Part shown: positions 1,418 through 61,422 of the stretch, piece by piece | Numbering within the stretch: the first letter of the stretch is position 1 | How the letters are laid out: every line of letters begins with the position of its first letter | Assembly: GCA_964023275.1 (NCBI GenBank) | Contig: OZ029913.1 | Coordinates: 53,655,644-53,719,643, forward strand | DNA from: Norana najaformis | Lineage: Eukaryota > Annelida > Clitellata > Crassiclitellata > Hormogastridae | Reading direction: 5' to 3' | Length of the DNA stretch: 64,000 nucleotides | Notes under the pieces: generated by a model | Told to the model about the DNA's origin: nothing | What the model saw: only the letters and a program-made list of their open reading frames with translations | Database searches by the model: none | Made by a program: the position numbers and the translations under genes

Positions 1418-3858
1418 TTATATTATTATTATTAATTAGCAACTTCTAATGCGCCAGTGTCTAATGCACAAGGCATCAACCGATGGCACACCAAAACCAA
1501 GCCACAATCAGGTCGATATCCAGGAGGTCAGTCCGCACGACAGAGAGGCAGCCTATGGTGGATAAGCAATTTGAAACAGGTAAGTTTTAAGTTGAGAACG
1601 AAATGACAGGAGCGACTGAGCAGAACGAACAGACACAGGGAGGGAATTCCAAAATTTTGGTCCAGCAACCGAAAATGCTCGTTTACCAAAAACAGTTCTA
1701 GCCCAAGGTATGACAAGAGAAAGACAATCAGATGACCTTGCAGAATAATGGTAAGTCTGGGGAATAAGGATTGATTTCAGGTATTGTGGTTGGCCATAGT
1801 TCAATGTTTTATAAACCGTAAGTCCTAATTTGAAACAAATCCTTTGCTGAACAGGAAGCCAATGTACAGATTTAAGCACAGGCGTTATATGCTCATATTT
1901 AGAAGTATTTGTTATGGCTCTAGCCAAGGAGTTCTGAACTCTTTGGAGTTTCTGCATGTTTGATTTAGTGATACCAACAAGAATGGAGTTACAATAGTCA
2001 AGACGACTGGAGACCAATGCGTTAGCTAAGGATATTCTGGAAGACATGGGGACATAATGCCTAATTCTGCGTATGTCTCGAATATACATATATGATGACT
2101 TACAAATACCATTTACATAGTTTGTGAGGGACATGGTTGAATCAAAAACAACACCCAAGTCACGAGCAGTATCAGTCATCTCAATCAGTGAATCACCCAG
2201 TTTTACAGATTTAAGCCATTCGAATTTCTTAAGTTGCTGAGGAGTGCCAAGCAGTAGAAATTCAGTCTTCGAGGGGTTAAGGAGAAGTTTATTTGCTGCC
2301 ATCCAAGACTGCAGCTCTTCAAAGGCATCAGACAACAGCTGCACAGACGAGTGACAAGTCAAACTGTCAAATGAGATGTAGATTTGGGTATCATCAGCAT
2401 AGAAATGATATCCCAGTGAATGATTGTCTAGCAGAGTACCTAGAGGTGTGGTGTATAATGTAAACAAAAGAGGACCAAGTACAGAACCCTGCGGAACGCC
2501 ACAAGTCAACGAGGCACTAGCTGAATAATGTCCATTTAAATATACAGATTGAGTGCGAGGGCTGAGGTAAGTAGCAAACCAGTGTAGGGCAGGACCAGAA
2601 ACTCCAAACCAATGTTGAAGACGATGCAAAAGGAGAGAGTGGTCGACAGTATCAAAGGCAGCAGACAAATCAAGGAGAACAAGTGCAGTCACCTTACCCT
2701 TATCCATGGAACACATGATGTCATTATGGACAGCAAGCAGGGCAGATTCTGTTGAATGAAATTTACGGTAAGCAGACTGAAATGGAGAAATTAGTGGGTT
2801 GGAAGAAAGGTGAGCTTGCATACGATTCAAGACTACCCGTTCAAGAATTTTAGATATAAAATTCAAAGTTGAGATGGGTCTGTAATTAGACAGGTCACTT
2901 GGATCGAGAGAAGGTTTCTTTAGCAGAGGATGAACTATGGCATGAGCAAAACCAGAAGGAAAGGATCCCTCAAGCAACGAGAAATTGATTATTGACGTAA
3001 TGGTTGGACCAAGGACATCAAAACATTCTTTTAGGTAAGAAGTGGGAATGGTGTCTAGGAGAGAGGTTTTGTCAGGTGAAGAAAATATGAGTCTGCGGAC
3101 CTCCGCAAGAGTTGTTGGCAGAAAGTAATCCAAGACTGGAGGAGAAGAACTAGGAAGAAGAAATTTATCACATAACAAATAACCACTAAATTTCAGCCTT
3201 ATACCAGAAATCTTATCAGCAATAAAGGTCAAAAATTTACTGGCTAGCTCTTGGGTAGAACAGAACACGCCAAAAGATGAATTTAATTTCTCCCTGTGTA
3301 GTAATTTATTCAAAGCCATCCACAGAGTTTTTGGAGATGTAGAACTTTCGGCAATTAAGTTAGTTAAATATTCTGATTTTGCTGAAGAAACAAGTTTACG
3401 CACAAGTTTACACTGTTGCTTAAACCTACTGAGATCTGAGGGAAGTCGAGAGTGGCGCCACCAACGCTCTAACCGACTTCTGTGACGCCTAGCATCGGAA
3501 ATGGCAGAGTTGAACCAAGGCTGTGGTGTGCGCTCTACTACTCTTTTAGATCTAAAAGGAATTTGTCTGTCAAGGAGCTCAGATAAAGTAGACTGGAACT
3601 GCATAGCCAGTTCACTAGCAGTTTGTGCAGGAGATAACCACAATGGAGATGTTAAGACATCATGCTTCAACTTGTTTAAATCAATTTTATGCCAAGGACG
3701 AAATTTAATTGTTTTATAATTTGAGGGTGGTTTAAAAGGGAAGTCAAATTTTGAGGAAATTGCAATATGATCTGATAAATACGACTCAAGTGGCGAGACA
3801 GAATGAAGTGATTTTGAGTCAGAACGAGTTATCAAAACATCTAAGGTGTGGCCTTTAT
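1418..3858 (-). mobile_element. 5'-truncated L2/CR1-like LINE (family A)
   Basis: Read on minus, the element begins inside the apurinic-like endonuclease domain. The bases just upstream of 3835 encode NKGHTLDVLITRSDS, and SDHIAISSKF follows. It continues through a complete reverse transcriptase and ends at about 1441 with a short untranslated tail and the core CCATCGGTTGATGCC, then a TAAT-rich tail at 1418-1440. Four other pieces of this family lie at 0.72, 13.3, 21.0 and 60.1 kb. The long open frame suggests a fairly recent insertion. Most of the endonuclease and any ORF1 are missing, so it is not autonomous. Confidence 0.92.
1553..3835 (-). CDS. LINE ORF2, endonuclease end plus reverse transcriptase (760 codons)
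   Basis: This is the ORF2 polyprotein fragment of the LINE, which would carry out target-primed reverse transcription. Visible in order are the C-terminal end of the endonuclease domain (SDHIAI), the reverse-transcriptase palm motifs NYRPISTLNFISKILE, DLSAAFDTVDHSLL, GVPQGSVLGPLLFTLY and the catalytic box FYADDTQIYISF, then the CR1/L2-type C-terminus (VHWLPVQQRI, KFWNSLP). The frame stays open for 760 codons with the catalytic Asp pair intact. The first Met is arbitrary because the true frame continues upstream to the truncation point. It is an element gene, not a host gene. Confidence 0.92.
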   Translation of the reverse strand: MITRSDSKSLHSVSPLESYLSDHIAISSKFDFPFKPPSNYKTIKFRPWHKIDLNKLKHDVLTSPLWLSPAQTASELAMQFQSTLSELLDRQIPFRSKRVVERTPQPWFNSAISDARRHRSRLERWWRHSRLPSDLSRFKQQCKLVRKLVSSAKSEYLTNLIAESSTSPKTLWMALNKLLHREKLNSSFGVFCSTQELASKFLTFIADKISGIRLKFSGYLLCDKFLLPSSSPPVLDYFLPTTLAEVRRLIFSSPDKTSLLDTIPTSYLKECFDVLGPTITSIINFSLLEGSFPSGFAHAIVHPLLKKPSLDPSDLSNYRPISTLNFISKILERVVLNRMQAHLSSNPLISPFQSAYRKFHSTESALLAVHNDIMCSMDKGKVTALVLLDLSAAFDTVDHSLLLHRLQHWFGVSGPALHWFATYLSPRTQSVYLNGHYSASASLTCGVPQGSVLGPLLFTLYTTPLGTLLDNHSLGYHFYADDTQIYISFDSLTCHSSVQLLSDAFEELQSWMAANKLLLNPSKTEFLLLGTPQQLKKFEWLKSVKLGDSLIEMTDTARDLGVVFDSTMSLTNYVNGICKSSYMYIRDIRRIRHYVPMSSRISLANALVSSRLDYCNSILVGITKSNMQKLQRVQNSLARAITNTSKYEHITPVLKSVHWLPVQQRICFKLGLTVYKTLNYGQPQYLKSILIPQTYHYSARSSDCLSLVIPWARTVFGKRAFSVAGPKFWNSLPVSVRSAQSLLSFRSQLKTYLFQIAYPP

Positions 3859-4224
3859 TATATGTACATCTACATGCAAATTATGTATATGTGTACATAT
3901 AAAAGCCATGATGGAAACTAAACGATCAGCCGATATGTGATAGTTTAACGGTCCGGTCGGATTAAAACCCACGTTTGGACGGATTGAGGGAAAGGAGGAT
4001 TGTGCGTGGCGAAACAGTATGCCATATCAACTATATATAACTATATAAAATTATATGATATATATAACTTGACACAGCAGTCGTGAATTTGGTTTCTACC
4101 GTTTAGCTTTAAGTAGCGCTTTCGCTATTCTCAAGTTTACGATTACCATTAATTTGTTAGAACCATTGCTCAACCACCACATTTGGCTCAACCCTACGAC
4201 GACCTATAGATGGCTCAATCGTTA
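3859..4224. other. AT-rich intergenic with LINE family B tail
   Basis: Mostly AT-rich spacer. Bases 4098-4150 match the 3' end of LINE family B (GTAGCGCTTT, then a CGATTACC tail), which is also present at 12.4, 48.2, 58.6 and 59.2 kb. Nothing else recognised. Confidence 0.55.
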
Positions 4225-4653: not shown

Positions 4654-5058
4654 TTGTCATTCTTCAATTTCGACACAGTCCGAACCAGAGACCGTGGATA
4701 TCCATCAACTGTTAACCGTGGCGATATAACGATTATAGAAGACCTAGAGATCACAGAATACTTGAAGATCCATTCAAGAAACTATAACCCAAAAAAACAA
4801 CATGAAAGTGAAATTTGCAACAACAGATTAGCACAGAATAGGCATCTCAAACTTCATACAAGAACCCAAACTGCAGAAAAAGCATTTGCACGGAAGCAAA
4901 CGCTGGAATACCATACAAAAACTCACACTTTAGAAAAGCCATACAACTGCAAACTCTGCGACAAAGCATATCCACAGAAGAATACGCTGACATACCATGT
5001 AAGAATCCACACTGATGAAAAACAAAATATGTATCAGTTTTGCAACAAATTGTTTTAA
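4654..5058 (+). pseudogene. Decayed N-terminal fingers of ZNF-1, ended by a nonsense codon
   Basis: The frame matches the N-terminus of ZNF-2 (IHSRNYNPKKQHES here against MHSKNCNQEKQYEQ there) and is in frame with the main ZNF-1 array downstream. Several things are broken. The paralogue's start Met is Ile here. One finger has lost its first Cys pair (TAEKAFARKQ). A TAA at 5056-5058 interrupts CNKLF, where ZNF-2 reads CNKLFSTLGN, consistent with TCA changing to TAA. There is no early in-frame ATG. It probably serves as leader for the ORF starting at 5077. Confidence 0.75.
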
Positions 5059-5076
5059 AGACTTAGTAATCTCAAT

Positions 5077-7044
5077 ATGCATGCAAGAATCCACACTGGT
5101 GAAAAGCCATATAACTGCAATTTATGTCACAAGGCAATTGCACCGAAAAGCACTCTGTCATACCATGTAAGAACCCACACTGGAGAAACGCCATACAAGG
5201 GTATTTTATGTCACAAATCATTTGCATATAAGAGTAACCTGGAAAACCATACAAGAACTCACACTGGAGAAAAGCCATACAGGTGCAATTTATGTCAGAA
5301 GCCATTTGCAACAGAGAGTCAACTGAATTTCCATACAAGAACCCACACTGGAGAAAAGCCATACAACTGCAATTTATGTCACAAATCATTTTCAGAGAAG
5401 GGTCCGCTGGATTACCATACAAGAGCTCACAGTGGAGAAAAGCCATGCAAGTGCAATTTATGTGACAAAGCATTTGCACAGAGGATTCATCTAGAATTCC
5501 ACACTAGAACCCACACTGGAGAAAAGCCATACAACTGCAATTTATGTCACAAAACATTTTCACAGAAGCATACTCTAGAAGACCATACAAGAACCCACAC
5601 TGGAGAAAAGCCATATATGTGCATTTTATGTCACAAATTATTTACATTTAAGAGTAACCTGGAAAACCATACAAGAATCCACACTGGAGAAAAGTCATAC
5701 AAGTGCAACTTATGTGACAAAGCATTTGCACGGAAGCATACTCTAGAAGACCATACAAGAACCCACACTGGAGAAAAGCCATATGTGTGCATTTTATGTC
5801 ACAAATCATTTACATTTAAGAGTAACCTGGAAAACCATACAAGAATCCACACTGGAGAAAAGCCATACAAGTGCAACTTATGTGACAAAGCATTTGCACA
5901 GAAGCCTACTCTAGAAGACCATACAAGAACCCACACTGGAGAAAAGCCATATATGTGCATTTTATGTCACAAATCATTTACATGTAAGAGTAACCTGGAA
6001 AACCATACAAGAATCCACACTGGAGAAAAGCCATACAAGTGCAACTTATGTGACAAAGCATTTGCACGGAAGCATACTCTAGAATACCATGCACGTACTC
6101 ACACTGGAGAAAAGCCATACAAGTGCAATTTATGTGACACAGCATTTGCACAGAAGTATACACTGGAATACCATAGAAGAATTCACACTGGAGAAAAGCG
6201 ATACATATGCATTTTATGTAACATAGCATTTGCACAAAAGATTCATCTAGAATACCATACTAGAACCCACACTGGAGAAAAGCCATACAACTGCAATTTA
6301 TGTCACAAAACATTTGCACGGAAGCATACTCTAGAAGACCATACAAGAACCCACACTGGAGAAAAGCCACATATGTGCATTTTATGTCACAAATCATTTA
6401 CATTTAAGAGTAACCTGGAAAACCATGCAAGAATCCACACTGGAGAAAAGCCGTACAAGTGCAACTTATGTGACAAAGCATTTGCACAGAGGATTCATCT
6501 AGAATACCACACTAGAACCCACACTGGAGAAAAGCCATACAACTGCAATTTATGTCACAAAACATTTTCACAGAAGCATACTCTAGAAGACCATACAAGA
6601 ACCCACACTGGAGAAAAGCCATATATGTGCATTTTATGTCACAAATTATTTACATTTAAGAGTAACCTGGAAAACCATACAAGAATCCACACTGGAGAAA
6701 AGCCATACAAGTGCAACTTATGTGACAAAGCATTTGCACGGAAGCATACTCTAGAAGACCATACAAGAACCCACACTGGAGAAAAACCATACAAGTGCAA
6801 TTTATGTGACAGAGCATTTGCACAGAAGTATACACTGGAATACCATACAAGAACGCACACTGGAGAAAAACTGTACAAGTGCAATTTATGTGATAAAGCG
6901 TTTGCACATAAGCATAGTCTGGAATGCCACACAAGAACCCACACTGGAGAAAAGCCATACAAGTGCAATTTATGTCACAAAGCATTTGCACGGAAGTATA
7001 CTCTCGCATGCCATGTTAGAACTCACACTGGGCGGAAACAGTAA
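5077..7044 (+). CDS. ZNF-1, C2H2 zinc-finger protein with 23 fingers
   Basis: A 655-aa intronless frame made of an 11-residue start followed by exactly 23 C2H2 units of 28 residues joined by TGEKPY linkers, with a short TGRKQ end. This is the classical sequence-specific DNA-binding architecture, so a nuclear transcription regulator is expected; no KRAB, BTB or SCAN effector domain is present. Finger 2 has lost a zinc ligand (YKGILC). Fingers 5-8 (5446-5781) are almost identical to fingers 17-20 (6454-6789), and fingers 7-12 alternate as a two-finger repeat, which points to internal duplication. The ATG at 5077 has A at -3 and follows the nonsense codon at 5056, so I take it as the present start. 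Target sequence unknown. Confidence 0.88.
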   Translation: MHARIHTGEKPYNCNLCHKAIAPKSTLSYHVRTHTGETPYKGILCHKSFAYKSNLENHTRTHTGEKPYRCNLCQKPFATESQLNFHTRTHTGEKPYNCNLCHKSFSEKGPLDYHTRAHSGEKPCKCNLCDKAFAQRIHLEFHTRTHTGEKPYNCNLCHKTFSQKHTLEDHTRTHTGEKPYMCILCHKLFTFKSNLENHTRIHTGEKSYKCNLCDKAFARKHTLEDHTRTHTGEKPYVCILCHKSFTFKSNLENHTRIHTGEKPYKCNLCDKAFAQKPTLEDHTRTHTGEKPYMCILCHKSFTCKSNLENHTRIHTGEKPYKCNLCDKAFARKHTLEYHARTHTGEKPYKCNLCDTAFAQKYTLEYHRRIHTGEKRYICILCNIAFAQKIHLEYHTRTHTGEKPYNCNLCHKTFARKHTLEDHTRTHTGEKPHMCILCHKSFTFKSNLENHARIHTGEKPYKCNLCDKAFAQRIHLEYHTRTHTGEKPYNCNLCHKTFSQKHTLEDHTRTHTGEKPYMCILCHKLFTFKSNLENHTRIHTGEKPYKCNLCDKAFARKHTLEDHTRTHTGEKPYKCNLCDRAFAQKYTLEYHTRTHTGEKLYKCNLCDKAFAHKHSLECHTRTHTGEKPYKCNLCHKAFARKYTLACHVRTHTGRKQ

Positions 7045-13220: not shown

Positions 13221-16200
13221 GTAAATGTTGTTCATGTTTCTTAATACGACTTGTCTTCCCGTGTATTCCGTTTCTTTTTGTAATTTTAATTAGTAACTTC
13301 TGTCGCGGCGGTGTCTACTGCACAAGGCATCAACTGATGGCGCACTAAAGCCAAGCCGCAATCAGGATCATAGTGGGCCAGAGATCAGTCCAGAGGATCA
13401 GCCAACTAAGACAGAGAGGCAGCCTATGGTGGGTAAGCCAAATGAAAAACGGTGTAAGTTGAGATTGAAATGACACAAGCGACTGAGCAGAACAAACAGT
13501 CACAGGGAGAGAGTTCTAAAATCTAGGTCCAGCAACTGAAAGAACATGTTCACCAAGAACAGTTCTTCACGATATGTATGACCAGATTAAGGCAATCTGA
13601 AGACCGGGTTGAATAATAAGTCTGAAGAATGAGGACTGATTTTAAGTATTTTAGTTGGCAAAAGTGCAATGTTTTAAACACTATAAGCCGCAATTTAAAA
13701 CAATTCTTTTGCTGAACAGGAAACCAGTGCAAAGATTTAGGTACATATTTTGAATGCTAGTTATGGCTCTAGCCAAGGAGTTCTGAATTCTTAGAGGTTT
13801 CTGCATGTTTGACCTTGTGATACCAACAAGAATTGAGTCACAGTAGTCAAGACAACTGGAGACTAATGCATTTGCCAAAGCTATTATGCATATGTCACAA
13901 ACATACATGTATGGCGACTTACAGATATCATTTACATAACCGGTGAGAGACAGTAGAATCGAAAAAGGAGACAGTCTACCAGATGTGCTGTTTTTAAATT
14001 TATCATTGCATTTTACATTAATTTTGTCATTTCAGATGGCTAAATTATCATTTCTGATCTTAAGTTTTTATTTTCCGACAAATTTATCCTTTTCTTTTTC
14101 GCTGTCTGATAAGTTTTGTTTCTGTCTTTCTTCTTTCTGTCTATTGTTGTGTTGCTGTGTGTGCGGTGGTCAGCTGACCTGTGTTTTCTATGGTTTCTTT
14201 TATGCAATTGGAAGAAATACGTTTATGTAGACTGGTCCAAAATTATGTCCTAAGGGTGTCCAGGTTTTTGCCATGATAGTTATGTCAATAATGTCAATCC
14301 AGAGTCCGGGATTACAGTAATATAAGGCAGACCAACCAAACAGTAAAGTACCTTCATGTTGTGGGCAACCCTATGGATTATTCAAATAGATTTTGTTGTA
14401 CTTTGTAAGGATTTGAGTGGGCCCTCTCTTTTGCTGGTTTGTGCTTCCACTGCCTGGCTTGCATTCTGGATCTCAGCCTGAAATTAAACAGGTCCAAATC
14501 GTGCCTCTAACCATTTTGCCTTAACTCAAACCTAAGTCTTGTAAGCATGAACAATATTTTAAATTTTATGTTGTATAATTTATATTATGTCTAAATTACA
14601 TTTTATTACTGTGTGTCATGTTGCATGGCATTAATTTATTTTACATTAGTCAAGTCTTAACTTGAATTCATACTTGTGTATGGATGAAGAATTTTAAACA
14701 GTTATATGCACTGCACTAATCTGCATTCCTTTAGTGGACGGAACATTACCATAATGTCATACTGGTTGACATCATGCTGTGTTGTAGGTGAGACTTCAAA
14801 GTATTCCTGTCACCGTTTGGTCCTGGCAGCCAGTTCTATGTACTTTGAAAGAATGTTCTCAAACGACATGTCCGAGGCACGAGCAGCCGAAATCCGCCTG
14901 AACAGTGTGTCAGCAGTTGCCCTTCAAAACCTCATTGAATATGCTTATACATCTAAGCTGACCCTTTGCAAGGACTCGGTCCTTGAGACATTTGAGGCAG
15001 CGGACATGCTGCAGTTTCCTAAGGCAAGGGAGTTCTGTCAGGAGTATCTGCTGGACCAAATCGATGCACAGAACTGCCTAAGTTTTCTGATGTATGCTGA
15101 CGCTTTCTCTTGTGTACCAATCTATGAAAAAGCCATGCTGTTTGCAGCCAAGAATTTCCAGACTGTGTGTCACCTGTCAGACTTTCTTGAGCTTCCTATG
15201 AACCATCTGACCAATCTGCTGATGGAAGACAACATAGAGGTCGAGTATGAGGAATATATCTACGAAGCACTGAAACGCTGGATCCTTCATGACCAGGAGA
15301 CGCGGTTTGTCCACCTTCCAGGGCTGTTCCGCAGTGTTCGACTCAACTTTGTCTCACGATGGTATCTGATTGAGGTCATCAGCAAAGATCCTCTGCTCAG
15401 CCAATCGCAGGAATGTAACAAACTGGTTCAAAGTGCCAAAGACCAGCTCTTGGCTCTCGGCCACACATATGAAATTCCCTGGCAGTTACCACCTTCACGC
15501 AAATGCACTGGACTAACGTGGAAGATCGTCTACGTGAACACATATGACCCAGATCCTGGTGAGTCAGAAATCTACTTATTTGACGTCGTGAATAAGTCGT
15601 GGAGTAACACCAGCAAACCGTGCCCTCTGGCTTCAGAGTTCTCGACATGCTGCTCTGTTGGCGATTCTCTGTTGGTCATGGGTGGCTGGACCAACAAGGC
15701 AGGCACAAAATCGCTGAATCAGCGTGGCGCTGTGAACATGATTCACGAGTTCAAGGTTATGCAGATATTTCCCACACTGTGGTACATTGGAAGTCATAAG
15801 ATGAGCATCTTCAGGTACCTCCATGCTACTGTTACCGCAGGCAACCAGATTTATCTTCTGGGTGGCTATGACGAGACCCAGAGCCTCCAGGCTTCGGTTT
15901 TTGTGACCGATGCTGACAGAGGGTACAAATTCAAGGTTTGTCCTCGGATGCCGTACCCGGTCAGTTCGCCAGCAGCTGCTGTCTTTGAGAACAAACTCTA
16001 TGTTTTTGGCGGTTTCGGCGATGGTGGTTGTCCACGTCAATTTGTCCAGTGCTTTGATATTCCCTCTCAGAAATGGTCTGAGTCAAAGCCAGGGTTCGAC
16101 GGTGTTTACACCTCGTGTCACTATGCGATCTGCATCAACAGACTGTTTTATGTCATCTGTGGTGATGTGCCAGCTCTGTTTGGCACCAATCATGTGATGG

Positions 16201-16499
16201 TCGGGCATCGAGTTGCCGTAAAATGCATTGATTCGATCTACACCTTCTGCCCATTGTTAAAGCTGTGGACTAAAGTGTACCAGTTTGTGGAACCGAGGAC
16301 AGGAAGCTTTTGTATTACAACTCTGGATGGCAAGATCTATATTACTGGTGGACTGAAGAACAATTTCCCTTGTTATACAATCGAATGTTTCGATCCTCGG
16401 ACAAACACGATGGAAACAGTTGGAAGCGCTCGTGAGGGATCAGGCAAACTTAGTCTATGTACAACCATGAAAGTGATGCATGAAAATTTTGGACTCTGA
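13013..16499 (+). CDS. BTB-BACK-Kelch (KLHL-type) protein, two coding exons
   Basis: Exon 13013-13220 (donor GCAG/GTAAAT) joins exon 14788-16499 (acceptor GTTGTAG) in phase 1, giving 639 aa. Exon 1 ends in the BTB start (EMHKFYRNGNLCDVVLDA). Exon 2 continues it (GETSKYSCHRLVLAASSMYF) through about residue 160, followed by BACK (CLSFLMYADAF to about residue 265) and a C-terminal Kelch propeller with visible blades (VMGGWTN, YLLGGYDE, YVFGGFGDGG, YITGGLK). KLHL proteins usually act as substrate adaptors of cullin-3 ubiquitin ligases, with Kelch binding the substrate; that role is inferred from the family. One or two blades lack the usual Gly-Gly pair. The subfamily is not resolved. The leader appears to hold several upstream ATGs, and the intron carries an antisense LINE. 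Confidence 0.93.
13290..13960 (-). mobile_element. LINE family A fragment in Kelch intron
   Basis: 3' end of family A on minus (GCATCAACTGATGG at 13328-13341 on plus), with the ORF2 C-terminal region broken by frameshifts (ALVSSCLDYCDSILVGITRS). Inserted antisense in the intron between the two coding exons, 5'-truncated near 13960. Confidence 0.88.
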
Positions 16500-50593: not shown

Positions 50594-51444
50594 GAAAGAC
50601 CGGAACCAAGGAAGGGCAGTATCGGAGATGCCAAAAGAAGATAGTCGTTGAAGAAGAAAGTCATGATCGATGGTGTCAAAAGCTGCAGAGATATCGAGAA
50701 GACAGAGACAAGAGACTTGCTGATGACTAATGGCAGAGACTAGTTTATTGTAAGAAAGACAAGCAGAGTATCAGTGGAGTGATGTTTAGTGAATCCAGAT
50801 TGGTAGGGATTGAGAAGTGGTTAGAAGAAAGGTATTCATTCAGCCGGGAAGGGACAATGCGTTCAGTTAGCTTAGACAATAAAGAAAGATTGGGGATAGG
50901 ACGGTAATTACAGATTATTTGTTAAGATTTGGTTTTTGGAAAGGGAGTGACAAGAAAATATTTGAAATCCAGAGGATAGTAACCAGTAGAGAGAGAAAGG
51001 TTGATTATTTCTGTGATAACAGGAACTAGGACAGAGGTCCAGTCTTTTAGAAGAGAAGAAGGAATAAAATCTAGTTCGTACTGTTTGTTGGGGAGAGAAT
51101 TTAGAAGGCATTTAATATTGAGTGCCTGTTAATAACACTGGTCAACATAGAAATCGTTACTGACTGGAAAAGGCCCTAATGTGTAGCATCTTGGTGTGCT
51201 GAACACGAATATAACCATAAAAATTTTTATTGGCTCTCGTTTTGAAAATATTTCATATAGTTCATTTTTTATGTTTCACCATGTAAATTTATGCAGTAGG
51301 ACTGCGACAATATCCTAAATAAGTCTAGAATGATGTAATATTCCACCTCATTGCATAATCCCATCATGGACACATCATGCACAGTTGATTACGTCATTTT
51401 CTGATGCAATGTAAAACTACAGCCAGTCGGCTGCTGACGTAAGA

Positions 51445-51469
51445 TGACGTCAGCAGTGTACTATATAAA
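51445..51469 (+). promoter_or_regulatory. Transposon promoter: CRE and TATA box
   Basis: TGACGTCA at 51445-51452 and TATATAAA at 51462-51469, about 120 bp before the ATG at 51585. A further GACGTAAG lies just upstream. The spacing fits a TATA-driven RNA polymerase II start near 51495. Confidence 0.6.
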
Positions 51470-51584
51470 GCGAGTCGGAACGGTTGAGCATTTACAATAT
51501 TACAGACTTTGTGCGAGACAGTTTAAGTTACTGTTTTATAAAACTATTATTACTTTATCCATTTAGATACAATACAGAACAGTA

Positions 51585-53276
51585 ATGCCTCGGAAGTGCG
51601 TAAATACTGTGGACAACTTTTGTTACATTTGTGGGGAAGTGACATTTGCCAACCAGAAGAAAAGTATCACTTATCAAGTCAAGAAGGCATATCATGCTTA
51701 CTTCGAATGCAAGGTTGGTGACCAAGACAAGCCATGGGCCCCGCATATATGCTGTGCTACATGTACAACACAGCTTTCACAGTGGTTGAATGGCAAAAGA
51801 CCATCAATGCCGTTTGCAGTTCCCATGGTGTGGAGAGAGCAAAGCAACCACGTAGATGACTGTTACTTCTGCTTGGTTCCTCCTCTTTCCGGTGGAATAA
51901 CGAAGCAAAAGAAGTCGACAATAGTCTACCCAAACATTCCGTCAGCATTGAGACCAGTTCCACATGGTGATGGACTTCCTATTCCAGAACCTCCAGCAGA
52001 ATATATTTTCCTTGATTCATCTGATGAGGACAAGGGTGAGCCGACATGTTCTTCTCCTGGTCCGTCAGCGTGCAGTGATCCCGATTTTCACTGTGGTGCA
52101 TCATCAACCCCACACAGAATAACACAGGAAGAACTAAATGACCTTGTTCGTGATTTGGACTTATCCAAAAACAAGGCAGAATTGCTAGGATCAAGACTCC
52201 AACAATGGAATCTTCTAGAAGAAGATGTCACAATTACTTCATATAGAAAGCGCCATCAGCAGTTGGAACCTTTCTTTATGAAGGAAGATAATCTGGTATT
52301 CTGTTCCAATATTGACGACCTCATGAATGCCTTACAGATCACTCATGACCCACAAGAATGGAGACTCTTTGTAGACTCTTCAACACTGAGTCTTAAGGCT
52401 GTGCTTTTGCACAATGGAAACCGTCTTCCATCTATTCCATTAGCGCATGCTGTCCACATGAAAGAGACATACGATAACCTAAAACAGCTACTGCATTTCA
52501 TTGACTATAACAGGTACAAATGGCACCTGTGTGGTGATTTGAAGGTAGTTGCCATTTTAATGGGACTGCAGCAAGGATATACAAAATATATGTGTTTCTT
52601 GTGTGAGTGGGATAGCCGAGCAAGAGAGTTGCACTACGTGCGGAAGGAATGGACTCCCAGACAAAACATGGCAGTTGGACAGAAGAATATCCAGCACCCA
52701 GCTCTGGTCGAGGCTCACAAAATCCTACTACCACCCCTTCACATCAAACTAGGTTTGGTGAAGAACTTCGTGAAAGCCATGGACCGCACTTCGCCAGCTT
52801 TCCGATACCTGCATGAAAAATTCCCTCGACTCAGCGAAGCAAAGATTAAAGAGGGAGTTTTTGTGGGTCCTCAGATTAGAGAACTCTTCAAAGATGACCG
52901 CTTCAACAACTTGCTGGAGGGTGATGCGAAACAAGCATGGAATGCTTTTCGTCTAGTGTCTACAGACTTTCTGGGGAATGTTAGGGCAGAAAACTACAAG
53001 GAACTAGTAGAAGACATGCTCAAGCAGTACCAGAAATTTCGCTGCAATATGTCTCTGAAGATGCATTTCCTTCATTTTTATCTGGATTTCTTCCCTGACA
53101 ACTGTGGTATGGTTAGTGACGAACATGGCGAACGTTTTCATCAAGATATCGCAACAATGGAGCAAAGGTACCAGGGAAAATGGTCCACTACAATGTTGGC
53201 TGACTACTGCTGGACACTCCGCAGAGATGCTCCCGAACAGCTGTACAAGAGACAGGCAAAAAAATCTAAGAACTAG
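51585..53276 (+). CDS. 563-aa orphan protein of the TIR transposon, probable DDE-type transposase
   Basis: The family is one I recognise as multi-copy, intronless proteins of unknown function in arthropod and other invertebrate genomes; no named domain. The N-terminus is Cys-rich (CYIC 13-16, ICCATC 55-60, CYFC 93-96), plausibly a DNA-binding zinc module. An acidic Ser/Pro linker (about 140-175) precedes the conserved core. LFVDSSTLSLKAVLLHNG holds Asp264. LCGDLKV holds Asp318 and is followed 19 residues later by CFLC (337-340). Then come LPPLHIKLGLVKNF, HFLH (494-497) and SDEHGERFHQD with Glu513. A D-D-(CxxC...HxxH)-E order is what RNase H-like transposases with a zinc insertion show, for example RAG1/Transib; assigning catalysis is inference. 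The frame is intact with no stop, and the protein ends in a basic KRQAKKSKN. Confidence 0.85.
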   Translation: MPRKCVNTVDNFCYICGEVTFANQKKSITYQVKKAYHAYFECKVGDQDKPWAPHICCATCTTQLSQWLNGKRPSMPFAVPMVWREQSNHVDDCYFCLVPPLSGGITKQKKSTIVYPNIPSALRPVPHGDGLPIPEPPAEYIFLDSSDEDKGEPTCSSPGPSACSDPDFHCGASSTPHRITQEELNDLVRDLDLSKNKAELLGSRLQQWNLLEEDVTITSYRKRHQQLEPFFMKEDNLVFCSNIDDLMNALQITHDPQEWRLFVDSSTLSLKAVLLHNGNRLPSIPLAHAVHMKETYDNLKQLLHFIDYNRYKWHLCGDLKVVAILMGLQQGYTKYMCFLCEWDSRARELHYVRKEWTPRQNMAVGQKNIQHPALVEAHKILLPPLHIKLGLVKNFVKAMDRTSPAFRYLHEKFPRLSEAKIKEGVFVGPQIRELFKDDRFNNLLEGDAKQAWNAFRLVSTDFLGNVRAENYKELVEDMLKQYQKFRCNMSLKMHFLHFYLDFFPDNCGMVSDEHGERFHQDIATMEQRYQGKWSTTMLADYCWTLRRDAPEQLYKRQAKKSKN

Positions 53277-53589
53277 TCTATGACCTGGTTTTTACAAATA
53301 TTAACTGTAAGTGTATCACTATTGGCATGCATTGTGCGATATAAAATTACTTCATTTCAGATTACAAAAAAACTAGAGCCAATTCGGCATTTTCACTGTC
53401 ATATTCGTGTTCAGCACATACAAATTGATAAGAACTGACTAATTTCATTTCAGTAACATGACTTTTGTAAAAATTTGTTGTCCAGTGTAATTTGGTTCCT
53501 ATGACTTAGATCTTTTGAGCAGTGCAATGCTGAAAGTGTGATGATGCACTTTAAAATATACTTAAGTTCATAATATTTATGTTTGTAGC

Positions 53590-54415: not shown

Positions 54416-54608
54416 ATGCTGTGCCACATAAATTGCATTTGCATGGCTTTATTCCAGTATGGGTTCTTGTGTCTTAGTCCAGAGTATGCTTCTGTGCAAT
54501 TGGTTTGTGACATAAAATGCACTTGTATGGCTTATCTCTTGCAAGGGTTGTTGCATACACATGAAGATTACTACGTGTTGAAAACAATTCGAAACAAAAG
54601 TTACATAT
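54416..54608 (-). pseudogene. Decayed extra fingers downstream of the ZNF-2 stop
   Basis: Read in frame past the ZNF-2 stop, the minus strand continues as ICNFCFELFSTRSNLHV, then KPYKCILCHKPIAQKHTLD, a second TAA, and THTGIKPCKCNLCGTAS. These are former fingers. The ZNF-2 stop (TAA after EKQ) stands where the paralogous linker reads EKQYIC, suggesting that a TAC codon became TAA. Confidence 0.78.
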
Positions 54609-55568
54609 TTATTGTTTTTCTCCAGTGTGGGTTCTTGTATGGTACGCCAAAGTGCTCTTCTGTGCAAATGCTTTGTGACATAAATTGCACTTGTATGGCT
54701 TTTCTCCAGTGTGGGTTCTTGTATGGTATGCCAGAGTGCTCTTCTGTGCAAATGCTTTGTGACATAAATTGCACTTGTATGGCTTTTCTCCGGTGTGGGT
54801 TCTTGTATGGTTTTCCAGATGACTCTTCCGTGCAAATGCTTTGTCACATAAATTGCACTTGTATGGCTTATGTCTATTGTGGGTTTTCATATGGTGTTCT
54901 AGCTGAATCTTCCACGCAAATCCTCTGTTACATAAAACGCATACATATGGCTTATGTCTAGTGTGGGTTCTTGCATGCACATCTAGATTACCAAGTGTTG
55001 AAAACAATTTGTTGCAAAACAGACAAATGTATTGTTTTTCTCCAGTGTGGCTTCTTACATGGTTTGCCAGAATGCTCTTATGCGTAAATGATTTGTGACA
55101 TAAATTGCACTTGTACGGTTTTTCTCCAGTATGAGTTCTTGTATGCCATTTTAGAGTAGGCTTATGGGCAAATGCTTTGTCACATAAATTGCATTTGTAT
55201 GGTTTTTCTCCAGTGTGAGTTCTTCTATGGTAAACCAGATGACTCTTCTGTGAAAATGATTTGTGACAATAAGTGCACTGATATGGCTTTTCTCCAGTGT
55301 GTATTCTTGCATGGATTTCCAGGTAACTCTTATTTGCAAATGCTTTGTGACAGAGTTTGCACTTGTATGGTTTTTCTCCAGTGTGGGTTCTTCTATGGTT
55401 CTCTAGACGAATCTTCCGTGCAAATGCGTTGTCACATAAATTGCACTTGTATGGTTTTTTTACAGTTTGGGTTCTTGAATCGAGTTCGATATGCCTATTC
55501 TGTGCAAATGTTTTGTAAAACAATTCTTGTTCATATTGTTTTTCCTGGTTACAGTTTTTCGAATGCAT
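54609..55568 (-). CDS. ZNF-2, C2H2 zinc-finger protein with 10 fingers
   Basis: A 319-aa intronless frame with a 41-residue N-terminus (MHSKNCNQEKQYEQ, with a vestigial finger), then ten C2H2 units joined by TGEKPY-type linkers. Expected to be a nuclear DNA-binding protein. Fingers 9 and 10 are identical (KAFAQKSTLAYH twice), indicating a very recent 84-bp duplication. Linkers after fingers 6 and 7 are unusual (TRHKPY, NRHKPY). It is the inverted paralogue of ZNF-1 about 48 kb away: leader, CRE-bearing promoter and downstream DNA all match. A nonsense codon has shortened it, since fingers continue in frame past the stop. Confidence 0.88.
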   Translation of the reverse strand: MHSKNCNQEKQYEQELFYKTFAQNRHIELDSRTQTVKKPYKCNLCDNAFARKIRLENHRRTHTGEKPYKCKLCHKAFANKSYLEIHARIHTGEKPYQCTYCHKSFSQKSHLVYHRRTHTGEKPYKCNLCDKAFAHKPTLKWHTRTHTGEKPYKCNLCHKSFTHKSILANHVRSHTGEKQYICLFCNKLFSTLGNLDVHARTHTRHKPYVCVLCNRGFAWKIQLEHHMKTHNRHKPYKCNLCDKAFARKSHLENHTRTHTGEKPYKCNLCHKAFAQKSTLAYHTRTHTGEKPYKCNLCHKAFAQKSTLAYHTRTHTGEKQ

Positions 55569-60093: not shown

Positions 60094-61422
60094 GTTTTAT
60101 TATTAACTATTATTAATAAATAACTTCTGTCGCGCCGGTGTCTAATGGACGAAGCATTAAGCGATTGTACAAAAAACCAAGCTGCTATCAAGTCAGTTCC
60201 AGAATATCAGTCCACAGAGAGGCAGCCTATGGTGGATAAGCAGTTTGCAACAGTTTACTGAGAACGAAATGACAGAAACGACTGAGCGGAATGAACAAAT
60301 ACAGGTAGAGAGTTTCAAAATCTAGGTTCAGCAACCGAGAAAGCTCGTTCACCAAGAACAATTCTAGTCTTAAGTAGACCTATCACAAGAGAAAGACATT
60401 CAGATGACCTGGTTGAATAATGATAAGCCCGGGGAAAGAGGACTGATTTTAAATATTGTGACAGCCAGAGTTCACTGTTTTATAAGCTATTGGCTCCAAT
60501 TTGAAACAAATTCTTTGTTGAAGAGTTAGTCAGTGCAGAGACTTAAGTAAAGGGGTAATGTGTTAATGTGTTTACGTGTTAGATCTAGCCAAAAGTTCTG
60601 AACTCTTTGGAGTTTCTGCATGTTTGACTTTGTGATACCAACAAGAAGCGAGTTACAGTAGTCAAGGCGACGGAAGACCAAACATATCCTTAAAGACAGG
60701 GGACGTAACGCCTCAACCTGCTTATGTCACGAATAGGCTATACACGTATGACGACTCAAACATCGTTTAGGCCTAGACAGTCGGTGAGAGGCCGTAGAAT
60801 CAAAAGCAACGCTCAAGTCACGAACAGCATCAATAAGCTCAACAAGCGAGTCAACCAATCTTAAAATTGTCAGCCGTTCAAACATCTTAAGCTGCTGTGG
60901 AGTGCCCTTTAGTAGAAATTCAGTTTTCGATGGGCTAAGGAGAAGTTTATTAGTAGCCATCCAAAACTGCTCCTCCTCAAAGGCATCGGACAATGGCTGC
61001 ACAGACAAGTGACAAGACAAACTGTGATAAATGTAAATATGAGTATCATCAGCACAGAAATGATATCCTAGAGAGTGACTGTCAAGCAGTGTACCTAGTG
61101 GTGTGCTGTATAATATAAACAAAAGAGGACCAGGCATTGAACTTTGTGTGGGATGCCAAATGTCAATAAATCGCTAGAGGAACAAATACCATTTCTCCCC
61201 TTGTATACTGCACGGACTAAGATAAGTATCAAACCAATGTAGATCGGGTCCAGAAGTCCCAAACCAGTGCTTGAGACAATGCAAAAGAAAAGAAAAGTCC
61301 CCGGTATCAAAAAACAGTAGACAGTCGAGAACAACAAGTGTTATCACTCTACCCTTATTCACAGAACGCAGTGTAATTATGAACAGCAAGAAAGGCGGAC
61401 TCTGTCGAATGAAAGTTATGGT

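Follow-up and report, generated by a model that had tools for sequence, protein, structure and literature searches.

The stretch of DNA analysed here, 64 kb long and referred to as the window, contains at 51136-53487 a DNA transposon of 2.35 kb, recognised by its ends, its open reading frame (ORF) and its copies in the genome. With a probability of about 0.9 it is complete and belongs to a young cut-and-paste family, present in high copy, within the Chapaev3 group (CMC class), the named Chapaev3 elements having been compared by description only. An unnamed protein is in this way assigned to a known transposase group through the anatomy of its DNA, and about 1,000 young copies, many of them with an open transposase frame, offer a system in which Chapaev3 excision and insertion could be followed.

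Ends and inverted repeats of the element

The window copy (L048) is flanked by two TAA repeats, at 51133-51135 and 53488-53490, which are the left and right copies of its 3-bp target-site duplication. Its left terminus, CACTGGTCAACA (51136-51147), opens an inverted repeat on the plus strand (51136-51243), and the matching repeat on the minus strand (53369-53487) ends in CCAGTG, its terminal bases reading CACTGGACAACA when inverted (53476-53487). Inside these repeats lies a perfect 18-bp inverted block (51195-51212 and 53401-53418). The inverted similarity extends to 51243 and 53369, which makes the terminal inverted repeat (TIR) roughly 110 bp long and, with its mismatches and gaps, imperfect. 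When the 140-base ends were aligned, the score was 105, against a mean of 50 for shuffled ends (s.d. 8, maximum 82 in 300 shuffles). Neither terminal 12-mer recurs elsewhere in the 64 kb at 0-1 mismatch. The sequence-only reading of this DNA had listed the inverted ends, the 18-bp block, the flanking TAA and a 563-codon ORF, and each of these is present, the inverted similarity being longer than first noted. That reading had also described an internal CRE/TATA promoter. The words are there, on the plus strand at 51435-51468 (TGACGTAAG at 51435, TGACGTCA at 51445 and TATATAA at 51462); however, the window holds 4 occurrences of the TGACGTCA word and 19 of TATATAA, and a promoter role for such common words is therefore a guess.

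Copy number and age of the family

A search of the genome (608 Mb in 17 contigs) for other copies, suggested with the sequence-only reading, gave 1,158 candidates at the DNA level, of which the best 40, the window copy included, were scored and all retrieved with 500 bp per side. These 40 have the same ends and no common flanking DNA. The query is covered from 1 to 2352 in 38 of them, to 2351 in one and to 2349 in one; the first 14 bases are the same in 40/40, and CCAGTG stands at the expected base in 37/40 right ends, the deviating ones being L021 (CCATTG), L038 (CCAGT followed by A) and L031 (without the last three bases). Taken with the approximately 1,000 copies in the genome, the common ends and different flanks of the 40 examined copies place the element beyond chance. 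Mean pairwise divergence of the 40 is 0.37%, and of their 151 substitution variants, 137 are confined to a single copy, 11 are found in two and 3 in three or more; the ORF has 563 codons in 33, 565 in three and is shorter in four, all these values coming from a sample biased to young copies because it consists of the best matches. L018 and L019, and likewise L029 and L030, are pairs that sit at different sites and have amino-acid changes in common, as traces left by sub-lineages of the burst.

Counting of short patterns over the whole genome gave 952 places for the 29-nt left end and 1,055 for the 36-nt start of the ORF (at most two mismatches each), 1,047 for a 24-nt mid-segment (at most one mismatch) and 930 for the 31-nt right end (at most two), with 0 matches for reversed control patterns. 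An excess of miniature derivatives (MITEs) carrying these 29-31-nt ends, the range that the check covers, was rejected, since neither the left ends (952) nor the right ends (930) outnumber the ORF starts (1,055). Positions were taken from the first 100 places listed per pattern, all of them exact matches. For the 89 exact left ends thus listed on contig C1, the exact mid-segment lies 1,128-1,175 bp off in 74, at another distance within 9 kb in 4 and nowhere in that range in 11. The exact right end lies 2,280-2,420 bp off in 61 and at another distance in 5, with none exact within 9 kb in 23, the pairing having used lists of exact matches from which inexact ends are absent.

Eight copies hand-picked by the left end alone all extend to the right end (2,316-2,359 bp) and carry 4-14 substitutions relative to the consensus, with a mean of 9.5 of 2,353 (0.40%). 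Their ORFs measure 339, 70, 560, 312, 563, 565, 444 and 565 codons, i.e., at least 560 codons in 4/8. An exact 30-mer of the ORF (the CCC form discussed below) is retained at 926 genome places, which with about 1,050 copies corresponds to a divergence of roughly 0.4% per base. In 7/20 further copies probed at both ends, the right end was unrecognised in the 61 bp retrieved; these, together with the gaps in right ends on C1, indicate that a sizeable minority is altered or cut on the 3' side. The family is therefore the product of a recent burst of a mostly long, coding element, of which a sizeable minority is altered at the 3' side.

Target-site duplications and empty sites

An exact 3-bp repeat abuts the element in 24 of the first 40 copies and a longer one in none, whereas 7.3 would be expected from swapped flanks (left flanks paired with the right flanks of other copies). 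With 8 full copies and 20 end pairs added, 60/68 sites could be scored, L031 and the 7 pairs with an unrecognised right end in the 61 bp retrieved being dropped; among the end pairs, this criterion would miss any copy that falls short of the expected length by more than about 25 bp. An exact 3-bp target-site duplication (TSD) was found at 36/60 sites, a longer abutting repeat at 2/60 and neither at 22/60. The 36 exact duplications are TTA (16), TAA (12), ATA (3), CTA (2), CAA (1), TAT (1) and TAG (1), and 22/36 are surrounded by an A..T context. The 3-bp TAA duplication proposed from the window copy is thus supported for the family, as mostly TTA or TAA.

Empty sites, which it had also been suggested to look for, were found for one insertion. 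Copy L019 is inserted in a high-copy repeat, and when its flanks were joined with one TAA kept, the 40 scored places comprised its own two halves and 38 that cross the junction at 78-83% identity. Six of the 38 were aligned together with a stretch of the window itself, an element-free relative (paralogous empty site) at 2395-2660 on the plus strand, and 7/7 continue across the site and lack exactly 3 bases when compared with the filled site, the aligner having put the 3-base gap two bases right of the L019 junction. The window also holds an element-free relative of the L027 site; it lacks 14 bases at 73% identity, and so it is not clean as an empty site.

The probable transposase and the mutation of the window copy

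The ORF (51585-53276, plus strand) is a single exon of 563 codons. Its N-terminal Cys/His region (C13xxC16, C57xxC60 and C93xxC96; 51621-51872) is a putative Chapa-type zinc finger. In an alignment of five proteins from three families, the invariant residues include D264, D318, E516, C337, C340, L385, H386 and H494. D264 (52374-52376), D318 (52536-52538) and E516 (53130-53132) are candidates for the first, second and third catalytic residues. They are accompanied by a C(2)C motif (C337-C340, 52593-52604) 19 residues past D318, an LH motif (L385-H386, 52737-52742) and an H(4)H motif (53064-53081), all on the plus strand; read from the N-terminal side, D, D, C(2)C, LH, H(4)H and E succeed one another as described for Chapaev. 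The family consensus has C337-C340, L385-H386 and H494-H499. The ORF very probably encodes the transposase, as the sequence-only reading had it. A Pfam scan of the window protein gave nothing above the cut-off (best E 0.053, retrotransposon gag), and sequence searches of the PDB returned no relevant match and none to RAG1 or Transib chains. In scans of viral contigs, one pattern had 0 matches and another 70 pattern matches, none of which was confirmed.

The window copy differs from the 40-copy consensus by CCC to TTT at 53077-53079, which changes two residues (S498F and H499Y), so that the H(4)H motif keeps H494 and, uniquely in this copy, has Tyr in place of its second His. The 30-mer with TTT has one genome match, the window copy itself, against the 926 of the CCC form. 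The three adjacent C-to-T changes are private to the window copy and, as a block change, look like a single event. If H499 is a zinc ligand, like H942 of RAG1, then H499Y would impair the enzyme; the ORF of the window copy is open and probably encodes such an impaired enzyme, which may be inactive. The intact ORF had been taken as a sign of recent activity. As such a sign it is favourable for the family, but not for the window copy, which alone has H499Y at a predicted zinc ligand.

Related families in the same genome

The GERFHQD motif, searched as a pattern whose spelling leaves out the element itself, matched 495 genome places (247 + 248; control 0), and all 30 of the loci retrieved from these 495 encode relatives. 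They belong mainly to three families, named A (best identity about 52%), B (about 48%) and the decayed C (about 42%), with L071 and L075 as further single loci; the alignment of five proteins puts the identity to the element at 53% for A and 51% for B. The usual right end is ..CCAGTG in family A and ..CCTGTG in family B. It is less clear in family C, of which one copy was examined for its left end and this was not found. TWAT follows the right end in 7/11 family A and 4/7 family B copies shown. For two copies of A (TTA, TAA) and one of B (TAA), a left end with matching 3-bp repeats was located; in another B copy the repeats read TTA against TCA. At least three related families occur in the genome, and in A and B both the type of end and the target are those of the element. 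Between the element and A or B, codon positions 1, 2 and 3 differ by about 0.40, 0.29 and 0.62-0.69; the difference at the third position is about double that at the second, which points to protein-coding selection.

Classification and alternative explanations

Chapaev elements are described as having CAC/GTG termini and 3-4-bp duplications, and the Chapaev3 group as having a TWA duplication between A and T, reported for every Chapaev3 examined, and transposases mostly encoded by a single exon; Garfield_BM, of 2,289 bp and 556 aa, has C(2)C, LH and H(4)H (PMC4079192). Chapaev3 is placed as a sublineage of Chapaev inside the wider CMCT clade (PMC12730594), and its transposases have an N-terminal Chapa zinc-finger domain (PMC4411706). 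The family described here resembles Garfield, Merrow and Conan in its CAC..GTG ends, its TWA duplication inside A..T, its length of about 2.3 kb, its transposase of about 560 aa, and the C(2)C, LH and H(4)H of its consensus (PMC4079192). As in Chapaev3, C(2)C and LH stand between the second D and the last E; H(4)H is present in the family (926 exact 30-mers) and absent from the window copy. Two features are unlike Chapaev3: at 22/60 sites no repeat of 3 bp or more abuts the element, most of these sites fitting 1-4 extra bases at one end, and the H(4)H of the window copy has lost its second His. Counted strictly, 24/60 sites without an exact 3-bp TSD speak against an exact fit. The family has about 1,000 young copies. 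Because each of these features from PMC4079192 that could be tested is present, it is filed within the Chapaev3 group as a new family; in the portions of the Chapaev literature covered, no description was recognised as this family.

Likeness extends to RAG1 and Transib, and is there partial. The target duplication of RAG1/Transib is 5 bp, unlike the 3 bp found here, and their PDB chains showed no sequence match. In the spacing D-(19)-C(2)C and in an H(4)H ahead of the last acidic residue, the element is like RAG1/Transib, RAG1 having 19 residues from D708 to C727, 5 from H937 to the zinc ligand H942 and 108 from D600 to D708 (excerpt of PMC4914335). The distance from D264 to D318 is 54, half of the 108 in RAG1, and D264 is therefore the least certain of the candidate catalytic residues.

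Other origins of such a structure have to be weighed against the Chapaev3 reading. The possibility that a host multigene family or a segmental duplication mimics a transposon, to which one intact ORF with a possible promoter might lend itself, is negligible: it is already refuted by similarity that ends at the same points in the 40 best copies, by their different flanks, and by the 3-bp duplications and empty sites. It is improbable that the element belongs to another superfamily with 3-bp TSDs, either CACTA/EnSpm, with its CAC termini, or PIF/Harbinger, with its TWA target. Harbinger elements insert at TWA; they are not known to have CAC..GTG ends. The window protein matches no Pfam transposase family, those of EnSpm/CACTA and PIF/Harbinger included. 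The likeness to EnSpm is wider, as EnSpm too has CAC..GTG termini, 3-bp TSDs, C(2)C and H(3-4)H (excerpt of PMC12730594), but the TWA-biased target of the element sets it apart, and Chapaev3 is the group described as combining TWA between A and T with LH and H(4)H (PMC4079192). The sequence-only reading had favoured a new or poorly described superfamily. Placed within the wider CMC group, such a superfamily would agree with a protein that matches no named Pfam model and no transposase in the PDB. It is nevertheless very improbable and is rejected, since the Chapaev3 hallmarks that could be tested are found in the family consensus, the element comes very close to Garfield_BM (2,289 bp, 556 aa) in size and ORF length, and structure, target and motifs match the published Chapaev3, as far as the excerpt goes (PMC4079192).

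Proposed mechanism and deviating insertion sites

For the Chapaev3 family described here, a cut-and-paste cycle can be proposed by analogy. The single ORF would encode the transposase, its N-terminal Cys/His region may bind the terminal repeats, and a DDE RNase H-like centre (D264, D318, E516) is predicted to cut at CAC..GTG; insertion would occur at ATWAT, with TWA duplicated. Copies may still be mobile, and the ends of the window copy could be mobilised by the enzyme of other copies.

The flanks of 19/22 deviating sites agree with a repeat of at least 3 bp and 1-4 nt of filler on one side, compared with a mean of 8.8 and a maximum of 15 for swapped flanks (1,000 swaps); with a repeat of at least 4 bp, 11 sites fit, compared with a mean of 3.9 and a maximum of 9. 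As the offset was picked for best fit, these counts have to be judged against the swapped flanks, and chance could account for as many as half of the filler fits. The filler bases are A-rich, and L038, with its altered last base, belongs to the filler-fitting sites. The deviating sites include L012, L020, L023, L027, L030, L032, L035 and L036, and also L044, L084, L085, L087, L100, L114 and L128. Palindromic (hairpin-type) filler was rejected, the fillers not being complements of the element ends, and carry-over of donor flanks fits five left-side single A fillers and only part of the right-side ones. It is tentatively proposed, as a possibility on the doubtful side, that this is a currently mobile Chapaev3 family with loose end processing, in which up to a third of insertions carry 1-4 extra A-rich bases at one end and the duplication is often 4 bp. 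If this is true, loose ends would point to a step of cleavage or end-joining absent from the Chapaev3 description in the excerpt of PMC4079192. The deviating sites could serve as a test of end cutting by enzymes that resemble RAG1 in motif layout.

Other features of the window

Units of 84 bp that encode C2H2 zinc fingers form two arrays on opposite strands, at 4879-7031 (25.6 copies) and 54426-55516 (13 copies). A 774-codon open frame on the minus strand (1556-3877) has a reverse transcriptase domain (PF00078, E 8e-36); sequence related to it is high-copy, hosts the L019 insertion and recurs at 60689-61417. A further open frame, of 603 codons at 14688-16496 on the plus strand, is of the BTB-BACK-Kelch type.
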